Shown here: positions 17,548 through 40,787 of the stretch, piece after piece
Layout: each line of letters opens with the position of its first letter
Numbering within the stretch: position 1 is the stretch's first letter
From: Microcaldota archaeon
Lineage (GTDB): Archaea > Micrarchaeota > Micrarchaeia > Micrarchaeales > Micrarchaeaceae
Direction: 5' to 3'
Assembly: GCA_021848125.1 (NCBI GenBank)
Contig: JAJZMY010000005.1
Coordinates: forward strand, 1 to 49,788
DNA: 49,788 nt
Position numbers and translations under genes: made by a program
The notes under the pieces: model-generated
Databases searched by the model: none
What the model saw: only the letters and a program-made list of their open reading frames with translations
Told to the model about the DNA's origin: nothing

Positions 17548-18402
17548 ATGAATGAGTTTATGTTCTCAAAATCTCAAAAAATTGAATTTGTAAAAAAAAT
17601 GCAGCAGGAAATAAATAATTACAGTACAATAGGCCTAGTTCAGATTCAAAATATTCCGGATAAATTATTGCAGAAATCAAAAAATAGTTTTAAAAAGGAC
17701 ACGAAAATAATATTTGCAAGAAAAAAAATATTATTAAGGGTTTTGGAAAAAGAAGCCAAATTGAAGCCCCTGTTTGATGAATTAAAAAATAACAAGGTGC
17801 AATATGTAATTTTATTAACTAATGATTCAGCTTTTGAAATATTTAAGAAATTCAAATCAAATTCATTAAAGCTTTTTGCAAAACCAAACCAAAAATCAAT
17901 TGAGGACATATTAATAAAAAGCGGGGAAACAAGTATTCAGCCGGGCCAGACAGTCACTGAATTAAAACAGGCAGGAATAAATGTACAGATCCAAAAAGGC
18001 AAGGTTGTTATAGGAACTGATAAAATAATCAGGAAGGATGAAGTAATAACGCCGCAGATTTCAAAAGTGCTGAGAATTTTAGACATAAAGCCATTTACAG
18101 TCTCAATAATTCCAAATTTAATATTTTATCAGGATTTATTGTTTAATAGAGAGGTTCTAAATATTAATAAAGACAAAATAGTCAATGATATGATAAAATC
18201 ATTTAATAGCGCATTGGCAATCTGCCTGCAGAAAAACATAATAAACAAATATACAATAAGCACATTTGTTGCAAAAGCATACAATAATGCAATATATCTT
18301 GGATTAAAAGCGCAGTTATATGAAAAAGGAATCATAGAAAAGCTTTTATTAAATGCATTTATAAATACAATTACATTAAATAATTCAATAAATAGCCAGT
18401 GA
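17548..18402 (+). CDS. rpl10: Ribosomal protein L10 (P0, uL10), lacking the stalk tail
   Basis: The 284-aa protein is the base of the GTPase stalk. It has the N-terminal rRNA-binding domain (KSQKIEFVKKMQQEINNY through IFARKKILLRVLE), the archaeal insertion domain (IQPGQTVTELKQAGI through ITPQISKVLRILDIKP), then a helical region that should bind P1 dimers. Archaeal P0 normally runs about 50 residues longer and ends in an acidic linker and a factor-binding tail like that of P1. Here it stops at INSQ with no such tail. The start is ATG 17548, or ATG 17560. Confidence 0.93.
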   Translation: MNEFMFSKSQKIEFVKKMQQEINNYSTIGLVQIQNIPDKLLQKSKNSFKKDTKIIFARKKILLRVLEKEAKLKPLFDELKNNKVQYVILLTNDSAFEIFKKFKSNSLKLFAKPNQKSIEDILIKSGETSIQPGQTVTELKQAGINVQIQKGKVVIGTDKIIRKDEVITPQISKVLRILDIKPFTVSIIPNLIFYQDLLFNREVLNINKDKIVNDMIKSFNSALAICLQKNIINKYTISTFVAKAYNNAIYLGLKAQLYEKGIIEKLLLNAFINTITLNNSINSQ

Positions 18403-18482: not shown

Positions 18483-18788
18483 ATGGAATATGTATATGCA
18501 GCACTTCTAATAGATGCAGCAGGAAAAGAAATAAATGAAAAGAGTTTGCTTGAAGTAGTAAAAGCAGCAGGGTTCAGTCCTGATGAAGCAAAAGCAAAAG
18601 CAATTGTTGAATCATTAAAAGACGTGAACATAAAGGAAATACTGAAATCAGCTGAAAATATGCAGATGGCATCCCCTGCAGGACAAGCAAAGGCAGAGAC
18701 GAAACCAGAACACAAGGAAAAACCAAAAGAAGAAAACAAAAAAACAGAAGAAGAGGCAGCATCTGGATTAGCAGGATTATTCGGTTGA
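18483..18788 (+). CDS. rpl12: Ribosomal protein P1 (aL12)
   Basis: The 101-aa stalk protein MEYVYAALLIDAAGKEI... has the helical dimerisation domain, an Ala/Lys/Glu-rich hinge and the factor-binding tail SGLAGLFG. It recruits EF-2 and other translation GTPases to the ribosome. The ATG at 18483 has AAGGTG eight bases upstream. The GTG inside that site (18474) would add three residues and is rejected. It follows L10, as usual. Confidence 0.95.
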   Translation: MEYVYAALLIDAAGKEINEKSLLEVVKAAGFSPDEAKAKAIVESLKDVNIKEILKSAENMQMASPAGQAKAETKPEHKEKPKEENKKTEEEAASGLAGLFG

Positions 18789-21046: not shown

Positions 21047-23239
21047 ATGGTAAGAAAAGAATTTGTTGTGTCTGAAATAACAAAAATAATGTCTGATGTT
21101 GAAAGTATAAGAAATGTTGCAATAATTGCGCATGTTCATCATGGGAAAACAACACTGACTGATTCTTTACTAGCAAAAGCTGGCTTGATCTCAAAATCAG
21201 TTGCAGGCGAAATTCTATATACAAACTATGAGGCAATTGAAAAAGACAGAAGAATGACTATAAAATCAGCATACATATCTTTGGGATTCAATTACAAAGA
21301 TAGGGATTATTTAATAAATCTGATTGATACTCCGGGGCATGTTGATTTTGGAGGGCATGTAACAAGAGCAATGAGAGCAGTTGACGGAGTTGTTTTAGTT
21401 GTTGATCCAGTAGAAGGCATTATGCCCCAAACAGAAACAGTCCTTAGGCAGGCATTGAAGGAAAAAGCGCGCCCTGTTTTGTTTGTTAACAAGGTTGACA
21501 GGCTTTTGAATGAATTAAGATTAACAAAAGAGCAGACATTTGAAAGATTATTAAAATTAATAAATGACATTAATAAATTAATATCCCAGTTTGCTCCTGA
21601 AGAATTTGCAGAGCAGTGGAAGGTTAGTGTTGAAAATGGCGCTGTTTGCTTTGGTTCTGCAATGAAAAAATGGGCTGTTTCAAAAAGAACAATGGAGCAG
21701 AAAAACATTTCTTTTAAAGATATTTTTGAATTAACTGGAAAAGGCGATGAAGCCAAACTTCAGGAAATAGCTCCAGTTGATGAAGCAGTGCTGCCAATGA
21801 TTATTGAACATCTGCCAGACCCAAAGCATGCCCAGGTGTATAGAATCCCTCAAATCTGGCATGGGGATTTGGAATCTGAAAATGCAAAATTTATGCTAAA
21901 TACAGATCCAAATGGAAAGGCAAATATTGTTGTTTTTGGAATAAAATATGACCAGCATTCCGGTGAGGTTGCAGTCGGGCGCATTTTTTCAGGAGTAGCC
22001 AAAAAAGGGATTGAATTAAATGTTTCTGGAAAAACACAAAAACAAAGGCTGCAGCAGATTGCAATATACATGGGTCCTGAAAAAGTAATAGTTGACTCAA
22101 TTCCTGCTGGAAACATTGTCGCGCTTGTTGGGCTTAAAGATCTTTCTGTTGGAGACACTTTAAGCGAGGATGAAATAGAGGCATTTGAAGAAATAAAACA
22201 TTATTCGCAGCCAGTCGTAACAAAGGCAATCGAGGCAAAAGATTCGAGGGATACAACAAAATTAATTGAGGCACTGCGGGAATTGACAAAAGAAGACCCA
22301 ACAATAAAAGTTGAAATAAACAAGGATACTGGGGAGCACCTAGTCAGCGGAATGGGGGAACTCCACTTAGAAATAATTGAAACAAAATTAAAAGATGATT
22401 TCCAAATCCCAATCATATCCGGCGAACCAATTGTTTTGTATGTTGAAACAATTTCTAAACAAGCAGGTCCTGTTGAGGGAAAATCGCCGAACAAGCATTC
22501 GAAATTTTATGTTACAGTTGAGCCATTGCCTGAAACAGTTATAAATGCAATGAACGAAGGTTTAATACATGAGGGAAAGCCAAAAGGCCAATTAGCAATT
22601 GAAACAATGATTACTGCTGGCTTAGAGCGGCAGATAGCAAAAAATGTGGAATATGTTAAAAACAATTGCATGCTTGCTGACGTGAGCCATGGGGTCCAGT
22701 ACATGAATGAAGTAATGGAATTATTAATTGACGGGTTTGAAGAGGCAGTAAAGGATGGTCCGTTAGCAAGGGAAAAATGCAGCGGAGTTCTGGTTGGCAT
22801 CACAGACGCAACAATTCATGAAGATCCAGTTCACAGGGGTCCGGCGCAGATAATTCCAGCAATAAGACGCGCAATTTATGCTGCAATGCTTACATCAGGA
22901 GTTAGTTTGCTAGAGCCGAAGCAGAATTTTACAGTAAACATTCCTCAGGATTTCATGTCAAGTGTTATTTCATTATTGCAGACAAAAAGAGGACAGGTTT
23001 TGAATGTAATGCAGGAAAATGAACAAGTTACAATAATTGCAAAACTTCCTGTTTCAGAAGTAATAAAGGGCTTTTCAAATGAACTGAGAAGCATTACACA
23101 GGGGAGGGCAATCTGGTATCATGAATTCGCAGGATACGAGAAGCTGCCGCAGGAACTTCAAGCAAAAATTGTAAGAGAAATAAGAACAAGAAAAGGCCAG
23201 CCGCCTGATCCTCCGACTGCTCAGCAGTTTATGGATTAA
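21047..23239 (+). CDS. fusA: Translation elongation factor EF-2
   Basis: The 730-aa GTPase drives ribosomal translocation. Its G domain has AHVHHGKTT (G1, 28-36), RMTIKSA (switch I), DTPGHVDF (G3) and NKVDRL (G4), followed by domains II-V. The diphthamide target His is H596 in DPVHRGPAQ. G1 has His at position 31 where AHxDHGKT is usual. Complete length. It ends the rightward translation operon and is likely the partner of the P1 tail encoded upstream. Confidence 0.97.
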   Translation: MVRKEFVVSEITKIMSDVESIRNVAIIAHVHHGKTTLTDSLLAKAGLISKSVAGEILYTNYEAIEKDRRMTIKSAYISLGFNYKDRDYLINLIDTPGHVDFGGHVTRAMRAVDGVVLVVDPVEGIMPQTETVLRQALKEKARPVLFVNKVDRLLNELRLTKEQTFERLLKLINDINKLISQFAPEEFAEQWKVSVENGAVCFGSAMKKWAVSKRTMEQKNISFKDIFELTGKGDEAKLQEIAPVDEAVLPMIIEHLPDPKHAQVYRIPQIWHGDLESENAKFMLNTDPNGKANIVVFGIKYDQHSGEVAVGRIFSGVAKKGIELNVSGKTQKQRLQQIAIYMGPEKVIVDSIPAGNIVALVGLKDLSVGDTLSEDEIEAFEEIKHYSQPVVTKAIEAKDSRDTTKLIEALRELTKEDPTIKVEINKDTGEHLVSGMGELHLEIIETKLKDDFQIPIISGEPIVLYVETISKQAGPVEGKSPNKHSKFYVTVEPLPETVINAMNEGLIHEGKPKGQLAIETMITAGLERQIAKNVEYVKNNCMLADVSHGVQYMNEVMELLIDGFEEAVKDGPLAREKCSGVLVGITDATIHEDPVHRGPAQIIPAIRRAIYAAMLTSGVSLLEPKQNFTVNIPQDFMSSVISLLQTKRGQVLNVMQENEQVTIIAKLPVSEVIKGFSNELRSITQGRAIWYHEFAGYEKLPQELQAKIVREIRTRKGQPPDPPTAQQFMD

Positions 23240-23423: not shown

Positions 23424-24392
23424 ATGGAAATTAAAAAACAAAATAAGAGCACAAAAAGTTTTTTAAGAAAAGCAGCAGAAAATAAAGAACAAGATCAGCC
23501 ATATAAAAAAAATAATATTAAAAAACTTATTCAAAATTTTGCAATTGCTTCTAGCACTGCATTAATGTTATTTTTATCTCCTATGCAGGTATCAAATTAT
23601 TTGCCTGCGCCAAAATCTAATTCCATTCTGTTTTACAATCAACATATTACAAAAATTGATTTTTATAAACATGCATTAAAAAGTAGAAATTGGAGCGGGT
23701 ATATTGCCACTGCAAAGTCGCAATTCCTAAAATCAGAAGTTATTACTGGAGTTTCAGCACAATGGGATATCCCGCATATAAATGCAAATTCAATCAATAC
23801 TGAAAATCCAAAAATATATAAACTGCTTTGGCTAATCCCTTTGTTTTCAGTTCCAACAAATGAAGTAACATGGATAGGCATTGGCGGATTAATAAGCAAT
23901 AATGACTTAATCCAGACAGGAACTGAATCCTATTACTCTCAACAAAGGCATAAAATTTCATATCGTGCTTGGTATGAGCTTCTTCCAGGATTTCCGCATT
24001 ATATTAATTCCAAAATTTTTCCTGTAAAGCCAGGTGATGAAATATCTGCAAAAATCAAATTGCTTAATACACCAAATACCTGGGATAATATATGGAAAAT
24101 TGAATTGAAAAATTTGACTGAAAATAAAACATTTAAAACAACTGTTGATTACAGCTCATCAATGTCATCTGCAGAATGGGTTGTTGAAAGACTGTCTGCA
24201 GACTTGATTTATTCTTATTTTAAATCAAATTTGGAACAATTTGGAAAAATAAAGTTTAAAGATGCTGCAGCTCAGATTAAAAAACACAATACTTTGGTTT
24301 ATAGGCCAGTTGAAATGATAAATAAGAATAACCAGATTATTGCAAAACCTACTAAAATCAATGACGGATTGAATTTCAGCATTGAAAATTAA
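23424..24392 (+). CDS. Glutamic endopeptidase, G1 (eqolisin) family, membrane-anchored or secreted
   Basis: The 322-aa protein has an N-terminal basic segment, a hydrophobic helix (about 36-54, signal or anchor), then a G1 peptidase domain: NWSGYI (89-94), WIGIGG (150-155), LIQTGTES with the presumed catalytic Gln Q164, AWYELLP, and SAEWVVER with the presumed Glu E251. In fungi these enzymes cut proteins at acidic pH outside the cell. GGGAGG precedes the ATG. The stop overlaps the end of the opposite SemiSWEET gene by four bases. A second copy lies at 24847. Confidence 0.85.
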   Translation: MEIKKQNKSTKSFLRKAAENKEQDQPYKKNNIKKLIQNFAIASSTALMLFLSPMQVSNYLPAPKSNSILFYNQHITKIDFYKHALKSRNWSGYIATAKSQFLKSEVITGVSAQWDIPHINANSINTENPKIYKLLWLIPLFSVPTNEVTWIGIGGLISNNDLIQTGTESYYSQQRHKISYRAWYELLPGFPHYINSKIFPVKPGDEISAKIKLLNTPNTWDNIWKIELKNLTENKTFKTTVDYSSSMSSAEWVVERLSADLIYSYFKSNLEQFGKIKFKDAAAQIKKHNTLVYRPVEMINKNNQIIAKPTKINDGLNFSIEN

Positions 24393-24691: not shown

Positions 24692-24796
24692 CCAATCAAC
24701 AATAACATAAACAATTACTTAAATATTAAATTATAAAGATTTAATAATAAAATAATTACTACATAAACTTTTGCTTTAAATATTTCGCTTTGTTAT

Positions 24797-24810
24797 ACAA
24801 AAAGTTTTTA
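24797..24810 (+). promoter_or_regulatory. BRE/TATA-like promoter of the second G1 peptidase
   Basis: ACAAAAAGTTTTTA, the same 14 bases seen at 694-707 and 45562-45575, followed by AAT. It lies 37 bases upstream of the GTG at 24847. It overlaps the longer reading frame that begins at 24790, arguing against that upstream start. Confidence 0.4.
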
Positions 24811-24846
24811 AATGGCATTATTGATATTTTAATAATAACTGGTTGT

Positions 24847-25770
24847 GTGCATATTGATAAAAGCAAAAAAAATATTAATAATTTTAACCCCATTGCTAAT
24901 AGTGATAACAGAAGCGGCAAAGGCTCGAAAAATTTTATAAGTAATAGCAGCAATGCAGATTTTTTAAGAAAAGAACAGCATAAAAATAAAGAAATGAAAA
25001 AATTAAATATTAAAAAAGCATTAAAAACAGCAGCTATTATTGCTGCTTCATCATTAATGCTTTATTTTTCAATGCCCCATAATTATAACAATAAAACAAA
25101 ATCATTTAAATTATTCAATTGGAGCGGGTATATTGCTGCATCAAGTTTTACAAACCCAATGCCTATTATTTCTGGCGTTAGCGGAGAATGGAGAATTTCA
25201 AAGATAAATAATTCTGATTCAAAAGGTGTTGTTCTGGATTGGATAGGCATTGGAGGCATACATATTAAGAAATTTAATAATGATAAAACATTAATCCAAA
25301 CTGGCACTGAATCGTATTATTCTGAAAAACATCAAAAATTTATTACTGCTGCATGGTATGAGCTTCTTCCGCATAGTTTAAAACAAATTAAAAATTTCAA
25401 TATTAAAACCAAGGATAAAATAGTGGCAGAAATAAAATTGATCAATAAACCTGCACAGGAGTGGGAAATAGAACTTAAGGATATTAATCAAAATGAATTA
25501 TTTAAAAAATTTGTGCATTATAAATCTTCTATGCTGTCTGCAGAATGGGTTGCTGAAAGGCCAGAAATAATAGGGTTTATATACCCTTATCTAGCGCATT
25601 TTAACAAAATAAAATTTATATATGATTCTGCAAAAATCAATTCAATTACTTCTCCATTGGGCATGCTGCATTATAAAAAAATAGATATGATTAACAGCAA
25701 AGGCCAAGTTCTTGCGCACCCGTCTAAATTAAAAAATAATAGCAGCTTTGATATTGTAAGAAACAGGTAA
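24847..25770 (+). CDS. Glutamic endopeptidase, G1 family (second copy)
   Basis: A paralogue of the 23424 gene: NWSGYIAA, WIGIGG, LIQTGTES, AWYELLP and SAEWVAERP are all kept. It has a basic N-terminus with FLRKEQHKNKE (aligning with FLRKAAENKEQ of the first copy) and a hydrophobic helix (ALKTAAIIAASSLMLYF). Because the two N-termini align, the start must lie upstream of ATG 24994. GTG 24847, 37 bases after a promoter-like element, fits. The segment between the GIGG and QTGT motifs is five residues longer than in the first copy. Confidence 0.82.
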   Translation: MHIDKSKKNINNFNPIANSDNRSGKGSKNFISNSSNADFLRKEQHKNKEMKKLNIKKALKTAAIIAASSLMLYFSMPHNYNNKTKSFKLFNWSGYIAASSFTNPMPIISGVSGEWRISKINNSDSKGVVLDWIGIGGIHIKKFNNDKTLIQTGTESYYSEKHQKFITAAWYELLPHSLKQIKNFNIKTKDKIVAEIKLINKPAQEWEIELKDINQNELFKKFVHYKSSMLSAEWVAERPEIIGFIYPYLAHFNKIKFIYDSAKINSITSPLGMLHYKKIDMINSKGQVLAHPSKLKNNSSFDIVRNR

Positions 25771-38805: not shown

Positions 38806-39231
38806 CTATGCAAGAAGCTGCCCCACTTCCTTTATAAATTCAGTAACATCTGCTGTGTTGTATGCTTGTTTGAAAGACTCTTCTTCATAGCTAGAATTGG
38901 CATACGCATGTATTAACAAATTCCTCAAAGTTCTCCTTTCCTTTATTTTATTTATGCTCTTTTTGCTAAGCTTGCCGCTCAGGCTCTCTATTAATGAGAG
39001 ATCGTCACCGCTAAGCTTGAGTTCAAGGCCTTTGTATAAAAGAGCCAGAATATCAAGTTCTACGTCGCTTACTAGCTGGAGGTTTCTCTCAATTGCGCTT
39101 TTAAGTATAATATCGGTGTTTTTGTAGGAATCAGAATCACTAGGCACAATTGAGCTAAGCCGCTTTGAATAAATCTTAAGATCAGATAGCTTTTCTTTTA
39201 TTCGCTCTTTATCAAGCATTTCCTTCGCCAC
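38806..39231 (-). CDS. hepT: HepT-like HEPN ribonuclease toxin (DUF86)
   Basis: The 141-aa all-helical HEPN protein has the catalytic RX4HXY motif (R103, H108, Y110 in RNLLIHAY). HepT is an RNase toxin held inactive by its MNT partner, which adds AMP groups to the tyrosine. The start overlaps the antitoxin frame by 20 bases. Start is GTG 39231, or ATG 39219. Its composition is less AT-rich than the surrounding genes. Confidence 0.85.
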   Translation of the reverse strand: MAKEMLDKERIKEKLSDLKIYSKRLSSIVPSDSDSYKNTDIILKSAIERNLQLVSDVELDILALLYKGLELKLSGDDLSLIESLSGKLSKKSINKIKERRTLRNLLIHAYANSSYEEESFKQAYNTADVTEFIKEVGQLLA

Positions 39232-39727
39232 TTAAAATATTTAACCTATAACTATAATTAGACCATTTTTCTGCTATCTGTATGCTATAGTCATACAATT
39301 TATTTTTATCGTTTAGGAAAATAATCTTAGCTTCATTAAGCACACGCGTCTGTACATTCAAAGGAAGATCATTGAGTATTGAGATATCGAATTTAATATC
39401 ATCTTCTATTGTTGAATATTTGTTAAGCTCATCGAAGGATTTAATTTCATTGTCAATCAAAATTGCAATATCTATATCTCTGTAATTCTTTTCCCTTCTA
39501 GCATAACTACCAAATAATAGAATGGCAATGACATGTCTGTCTTTCTCAGCGATTTTTATTATTCCCTGTATCTTATTCTTTATTGCATGTTGTGTGTTCA
39601 ACCATTGGATTATTGCTTCTTCTACGGCGCTACTTATTGACCCTCTGCCGTAGCCAAACCGCTCCATTGCAAGCGCCCTAAGCTTTGCGTCGACCTCGTC
39701 TGCAATGTAAATCTTCGTTTCTGCCAT
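39212..39727 (-). CDS. mntA: MntA-like nucleotidyltransferase antitoxin with N-terminal RHH domain
   Basis: The 171-aa protein has residues 3-45 resembling a ribbon-helix-helix DNA-binding domain (TKIYIADEVDAKLRALAMERFG, then SSAVEEAIIQWL). A minimal nucleotidyltransferase domain follows with LLFGSYARREKNYRDIDIAI: GS at 73/74 and the metal Asp pair at 84/86. MntA AMPylates HepT. The fused DNA-binding domain would let the antitoxin repress its own promoter, and an 18-bp palindrome covers its TATA box. It is the first gene of the pair and overlaps hepT. Confidence 0.85.
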   Translation of the reverse strand: MAETKIYIADEVDAKLRALAMERFGYGRGSISSAVEEAIIQWLNTQHAIKNKIQGIIKIAEKDRHVIAILLFGSYARREKNYRDIDIAILIDNEIKSFDELNKYSTIEDDIKFDISILNDLPLNVQTRVLNEAKIIFLNDKNKLYDYSIQIAEKWSNYSYRLNILSGEGNA

Positions 39728-40021: not shown

Positions 40022-40417
40022 ATGGCCCAATTTGGAATACAGATTCATAGAAAATCAAAAACAAAAATAAATGGAAACGGCAAAAAAATAGTTGTAGCTA
40101 GAGACAAGAAGAAATATGAGATTGGTAATTATTTTTCTGCGACAAAATTATATGAAAAAAATGTAACAAAAGAAATGAAAGAGCGTGGTGGAAAAAGAAA
40201 GAAAATATTAAAAAGAGCTGGATTTGTTAATTTATTAACAAAAAAAGGATATGAAAAAGTTCAGATTAAAGGTGTTGTTGAATCAAAAGATAATAGGAAC
40301 TTTGCAAGGCAAAATATTTTAACAAAGGGGACAATAATAAATACAGAACTTGGAAAGGCGGTTATTATAAATAGACCAGGAAGAGAAGGAAATATAAATG
40401 CAAAACTATTAGAATGA
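40022..40417 (+). CDS. rps8e: Ribosomal protein S8e (aS8e)
   Basis: The 131-aa protein has the archaeal short S8e pattern: an N-terminal HRKSKTKINGNGKK, a central GKRKKILKRAGFVNLLTKKGYEKV, and ILTKGTIINTELGKAVIINRPGREGNINAKL. It is a small-subunit component. It opens a unit with the 121-aa gene, four bases downstream. Confidence 0.95.
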   Translation: MAQFGIQIHRKSKTKINGNGKKIVVARDKKKYEIGNYFSATKLYEKNVTKEMKERGGKRKKILKRAGFVNLLTKKGYEKVQIKGVVESKDNRNFARQNILTKGTIINTELGKAVIINRPGREGNINAKLLE

Positions 40418-40421
40418 TTGA

Positions 40422-40787
40422 ATGGCTATTAGAGTTTATGAATGTGATGAATCAGAAATTGAAGAATTAAAAAAATTATTAAACTATGACCCATATACAG
40501 ATAAAGGCATTGATATTAACAATATAAAAAATGACAAATACAATGATGTTATATTTAAAAGGCAAGAATATGAAATAAAAAACGGTTCAATGATTTCATT
40601 GCCAAGTTCAAGATATTTTTTATATTTAAAGGCAAATGAAGATTTTTTAAAAAAAGCAGAAGAACTTTTCAAAGAAAAATTCAAAACAGTAAAAAGAACG
40701 GATAAAGATATTGAAGAAAAAATAATAAAATATATTAATGATGAGGAATCAAAAGCAAATCAGGGTTTTGGCGCAATTTTTGGATAA
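40422..40787 (+). CDS. Small acidic/basic protein ending in a stalk-like GFGAIFG tail
   Basis: I do not know this 121-aa family. The body is charged and helical. The C-terminus reads ESKANQGFGAIFG, which resembles the factor-binding end of ribosomal stalk protein P1 (SGLAGLFG in this window). That P1 tail docks on EF-2, ABCE1 and other GTPases. The gene follows S8e by four bases, so it is expressed with ribosomal protein. A ribosome- or factor-linked role is inferred from tail and context. Confidence 0.7.
   Translation: MAIRVYECDESEIEELKKLLNYDPYTDKGIDINNIKNDKYNDVIFKRQEYEIKNGSMISLPSSRYFLYLKANEDFLKKAEELFKEKFKTVKRTDKDIEEKIIKYINDEESKANQGFGAIFG

Follow-up and report, generated by a model that had tools for sequence, protein, structure and literature searches.

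We report here a previously unnamed family of small proteins that is found throughout the phylum Micrarchaeota and that ends in a stalk-type tail, in a lineage whose stalk base protein P0 (uL10) is tail-less. The member described lies in the window, by which we mean the whole stretch of 49,788 nucleotides that was analysed, from an organism with a whole genome of 776 kb (Table 1). The open reading frame is a real gene, because homologues are found in 59 of 60 relatives when the single window protein is used as query and, when a profile of 35 homologues with the tail included is used (profile A1), in 263 of 295 genomes of the class (95 of 96 among the good ones) and in all 75 high-quality genomes sampled across the phylum. 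The gene is near-universal in Micrarchaeota and is otherwise uncharacterised. Sequence searches with the window protein matched no Pfam or NCBIfam family, and searches of Pfam, NCBIfam, and PDB sequences with the window protein and 31 homologues gave isolated noise matches only; no relative was found in collections of phages, plasmids, and viruses, and a literature search with most subscription journals outside it found no description of the family.

Table 1. Features of the window discussed in the text, with positions counted from its first nucleotide.
Feature	Position	Strand	Evidence or remark
Stalk-tailed small protein gene	40422..40787	+	ORF list; ATG start; 121 aa plus stop
Body, then start of long C-terminal helix	40422..40733	+	AlphaFold2; body predicted as ferredoxin-like alpha/beta, residues 1 to ~93
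Acidic helical lead-in INDEESKANQ, residues 105-114	40734..40763	+	Acidic as in P1; one Glu conserved
Stalk-type tail GFGAIFG, residues 115-121	40764..40784	+	Homologue conservation; register as P1 GLAGLFG
Ribosomal stalk protein P1 (L12), ends SGLAGLFG	18483..18788	+	PF00428 match 18528-18782; P. horikoshii P1 3a1y_A, E 1.8e-14
Ribosomal stalk base P0 (uL10), ends LNNSINSQ	17548..18402	+	PF17777, PF00466
Ribosomal protein S8e, immediate upstream partner in one order only	40022..40417	+	PF01201, E 1e-22
HepT-like ribonuclease and nucleotidyltransferase pair	38806..39727	-	PF01934, PF18765
Peptidase_A4 protease gene, first	23424..24392	+	PF01828, E 1e-24
Peptidase_A4 protease gene, second	24790..25770	+	PF01828, E 2e-17

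The window protein ends in ...NDEESKANQGFGAIFG-stop, with EESKANQGFGAIFG as its last 14 residues, and P1 of the same genome ends in ...EEEAASGLAGLFG (KTEEEAASGLAGLFG). The resemblance between GFGAIFG and the SGLAGLFG end of P1, which the earlier note had pointed out, is borne out, in that the two have the same register and no other part of the family is as conserved as the tail. The register shared with P1 of the same genomes is Gly, a hydrophobic residue (phi), a small residue, any residue, Ile or Leu, Phe, and Gly, and the GL-x-x-LFG-type C-terminal peptide by which P1 is recognised is present in the family. A C-terminal G-phi-x-x-[LI]-F-G in the same register, preceded by small and acidic residues, is likewise common to the family and to archaeal P1 (aP1) as exemplified by SEEEALAGLSALFG of P. 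horikoshii. There are also differences between the two. At the first hydrophobic position the family mostly has Phe, and at the third residue Gly, whereas P1 has Leu and Ala or Ser at these positions. The residues ahead of the tail are small and acidic in both, although the lead-in is less acidic in the family, with a mean of 3.8 Asp or Glu in the 12 residues before the tail as compared with 5.0 in P1, and this counts against the explanation that we think best. The family also has a wider range of tail variants than P1, whose end does not vary in the same genomes and is GL[AS]xLFG in all 30 of the Micrarchaeota genomes in which it is readable, so the set of partners may be narrower or different. 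Some variation has a counterpart in aP1 itself; that of A. pernix has Met in place of Leu and an extra, dispensable residue after FG (PMC6791870), and these are paralleled by family members ending in MFG and in IFGG or IFGD.

To avoid the tail bias of profile A1, a body-only profile (A3) was made in which each sequence was cut ahead of the acidic lead-in, and this matched in 52 of 65 chosen genomes, most of them belonging to other families of the class, and in all 22 genomes of one divergent family. Homologues that keep the body and not the tail, on whose existence the earlier note would have given up its reading, were looked for with this profile among 181 distinct homologues that match it and have a complete C-terminus. 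The motif G-phi-G-x-phi-F-x followed by zero to three residues ends 173 of the 181 (with Phe replaced by Leu in two), another seven have a close variant of the tail that ends in phi-F-G or phi-F-D (extra residues follow in some), and the last homologue ends in IFR. The outcome thus favours the reading of the earlier note. Use of the body-only profile rules out that the tail conservation is an artefact of a tail-containing query. In a set of 127 non-redundant members with less than 70% identity, the most conserved columns are a tail Gly (126/127), the tail Phe (126/127), and one Phe in the body (124/125), followed by the remaining two glycines of the tail, such that the tail accounts for four of the five columns of lowest entropy; one Glu of the lead-in is conserved in 116 of the 127 members. 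In the A3 set, column identity across the body is 42% on average, and only one residue of the body is invariant. By these alignments the tail is the most constrained part of the protein and the body drifts, because the tail columns top the conservation while the body averages 42% identity.

Strong conservation cannot tell an internal contact from an external one, and the single Phe of the body is as invariant as the tail, both of which would be compatible with a structural C-terminus that, without any outside partner, folds back against the body or serves as a contact within an oligomer. We regard this as quite improbable, given that the end of the helix is of low confidence in both of the structural models described below, which suggests that it does not pack on the monomer, that members end with zero to three further residues, and that the body diverges where the tail does not.

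A seven-residue motif can also arise for another partner, and a second alternative is that the tail docks elsewhere, for example on the alpha ring of the 20S proteasome, with the likeness to P1 being coincidental. Proteasome activators use hydrophobic-aromatic-X (HbYX) C-termini (PMC12352868), and the final I-F-G of the window protein fits this pattern. However, the family, whose endings are IFG, LFG, VFG, or MFG with zero to three extra residues and include IFGG and IFGD, does not have hydrophobic-Tyr-X as its very last three residues; the aromatic position is Phe (Leu in two members) and never Tyr, and in 45 of the 173 motif-bearing members the phi-F-x triplet is followed by one to three more residues, which shift the aromatic residue from the penultimate place that HbYX uses. 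Docking of this kind would also leave the conserved upstream G-phi-G unexplained, and we consider it very unlikely.

Tails vary in one genus, g76 (loci L261, L280, L335, L339, L341, and L343), where they include GISLFD, GVSMFD, and GVASIGNMFD, and P1 of the same genomes is unchanged, ending in GLASLFG or GLANLFG. The eukaryotic stalk ends in MGFGLFD (PMC11624264), and the spacing of GFGLFD in the eukaryotic P-stalk end EESEESDDDMGFGLFD is shared by the few members with GISLFD or GVSMFD, although these eukaryote-like endings are exceptions inside this genus, in which P1 keeps the archaeal end.

The window gene and the gene for P1 provide the only two matches in the 776-kb genome to the DNA pattern for G-phi-x-x-phi-F-G-stop, both at the gene ends, and a reversed-pattern control has zero matches in the whole genome. 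Matches in one genome alone are weak evidence and only suggestive, because genome-sized Markov simulations yield zero to two of them, with a mean of about 0.6. It is the conservation of the tail across genomes, as read from the aligned homologues, that is decisive in carrying the claim of more than chance.

The AlphaFold2 models of the window protein (pLDDT 88.8, pTM 0.80) and of a distant homologue (pLDDT 85.7) have the same order of elements, a predicted beta-alpha-beta-beta-alpha body and a long C-terminal helix, the end of which is the least certain part of both (block means of 62 and 43, and of 66 and 51). When the two models were used for fold searches, the matches were to PII-like, KH-like, and LepA-like proteins and to 2cve, at Z of 6 to 8.8, and Foldseek gave no match with E below 0.04. 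The best fold match is a domain of 2cve, which we take to be a YigZ/IMPACT-type C-terminal domain (Z 8.8, rmsd 1.7 over 63 residues, 6% identity), with PII-like folds close behind. Both the 2cve and the PII-like ferredoxin folds have the beta-alpha-beta-beta-alpha arrangement in common with the body, but the fold is a common one, and at 6% identity we claim no function shared with 2cve. The fold matches are middling, the family has no Pfam match to PII, YigZ, or other ferredoxin-like families, and no ribosome- or RNA-binding family was identified for the body. The matches to the predicted models appear to reflect a common ferredoxin-like arrangement, and we read no function from them. The body also has a weak match among PDB sequences to Pyrococcus EF-1beta (E 0.72). 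The archaeal factor aEF1B is the GEF of aEF1A, and we rejected the body as a replacement for it; 24 of 28 genomes, that of the window among them, have a canonical aEF1B, and the family has no match to PF00736 (EF1_GNE, aEF1B). We also note that many members of family f1 (for example L028, L036, and L041) have an insertion of ~15–35 charged residues after a conserved YDPYLD segment, and that the window protein has no such insertion.

The body had earlier been described as unrelated to P1, and by sequence this holds, because a BLASTP alignment of the window protein with P1 of its genome is limited to the last ten residues, at the tail. The N-terminal helical dimerisation domain of P1 binds P0. 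Pfam scans of the family found no match to this domain (PF00428), and the predicted body is alpha/beta; unlike aP1, the family is without an N-terminal helical dimerisation domain, and a canonical P1 is encoded separately in the genomes examined. The stalk is anchored to large-subunit rRNA by P0. The L10 RNA-binding domain of P0 (PF00466 and PF17777) has no Pfam match in the family, no common sequence was detected between P0 and the family protein, and P0 of the window genome is a separate gene. By these comparisons, the protein is a member of neither the P1 nor the P0 family.

P0 of P. furiosus aligns with the P1 tail up to its last residue (4v6u_Bk, 339 of 339), and is thus, like the family protein, a carrier of the stalk tail that is not P1. 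In contrast with Pyrococcus, a stalk-like C-terminal motif is absent from all 31 of the Micrarchaeota P0 proteins read (loci L195–L224 and the window), which represent 17 families. Nearly all of the Micrarchaeota genomes examined have both the tail-less P0 and the tailed small protein, and the stalk base of these archaea is, to judge from its sequences, without a tail while an apparently unrelated protein carries one. A more far-reaching version of events is that the tail of P0 was lost, and that a separate and exchangeable protein supplies an extra arm for factor binding, docked to either the ribosome or the factors, giving a divided and possibly regulated stalk; we think that this is unlikely.

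The archaeal and eukaryotic stalk peptide is a port that recruits translational GTPases and ABCE1, and ribosome-inactivating toxins and GCN2 likewise work through the stalk. The last 14 residues of aP1 suffice for binding of aEF1A, and loss of the last three residues, LFG, from the P. horikoshii peptide SEEEALAGLSALFG abolishes it (PMC6791870). Only Leu106 and Phe107 of aP1 take part in binding in both nucleotide states, and similar burial of the Phe recurs in complexes with aEF2, aIF5B, and ABCE1 (PMC6791870). From these published peptide data, and from the register and invariance of the tail, we infer that the tail is probably a working copy of the stalk peptide and that it docks on aEF1A, aEF2, aIF5B, and/or ABCE1. 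Of these factors, aEF2 is encoded in the window itself, at 21047–23239. Binding by aP1 has Kd values of 10–50 uM. The G-phi-x-x-[IL]-F-G end would insert into the hydrophobic sites on these factors that normally receive aP1, and a bound translation factor would be tied to whatever second partner is bound by the body. On balance, we think it fairly likely that the family acts as an accessory translation protein throughout the Micrarchaeota, composed of a small alpha/beta body and a P1-type factor-binding peptide on an acidic helix. The form of this that we favour is an extra, detachable stalk arm that would recruit or hold factors in a lineage with a tail-less P0; what the body binds, and whether recruitment or competition is the outcome, are guesses on our part.

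The gene was proposed at first to be coupled to that for ribosomal protein S8e, and this part of the earlier interpretation, unlike the tail likeness, the register, and the unrelated body, stands only within one order. The stop of S8e at 40417 is four bases upstream of the window gene start, and S8e precedes the gene in 49 of the 50 genomes from the order of the window, the exception being at a contig end. Elsewhere in the class, 30 genomes of other families all lacked S8e within about 1.5 kb of the gene, and inspection by eye showed no shared neighbour and no evident translation neighbour in those families. We therefore reject S8e coupling as a general clue and include it neither in the general mechanism nor in the definition of the family; the link with S8e is a local arrangement, and suggests co-expression with the ribosome. 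On the other side of the S8e gene, and divergent from it, lies the HepT-like ribonuclease and nucleotidyltransferase pair, which is a probable HEPN-MNT toxin-antitoxin. Elsewhere in the window are two adjoining genes for Peptidase_A4 (acid glutamic, G1-type) proteases, which are unusual for a reduced archaeon and fit an acidic habitat.

The family protein could also be a competitor or sequestering factor whose tail would capture translational GTPases away from the ribosome and withhold them from the stalk, for example as a brake or a store in starvation. Such a role draws on the same tail evidence as the accessory arm does, and is consistent with a body that has no sequence relation to the ribosome-anchored part of the stalk and with a gene that is not beside a recognised ribosomal gene outside one order. 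However, the six P1 tails per ribosome would be expected to outcompete a monovalent binder unless it were very abundant or bound more tightly, and presence in all 75 of the good genomes, which are reduced, is easier to reconcile with a housekeeping role than with a conditional brake. We rate the competitor as somewhat unlikely, and have a weak preference for the accessory stalk arm over it, because the gene is near-universal in reduced genomes and is situated behind S8e in one order.

The only carriers of the stalk peptide in the literature searched are P0, P1, and P2. An unrelated protein that keeps the peptide phylum-wide beside a tail-less P0 would, if our reading is correct, amount to stalk-tail sharing or competition occurring in nature, and loss of the P0 tail with its supply by a separate protein would, if true, mean a divided and possibly regulated stalk in reduced archaea, of a kind not known elsewhere. 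For the Micrarchaeota, the stalk-type tail offers a first functional lead for a near-universal and uncharacterised gene.
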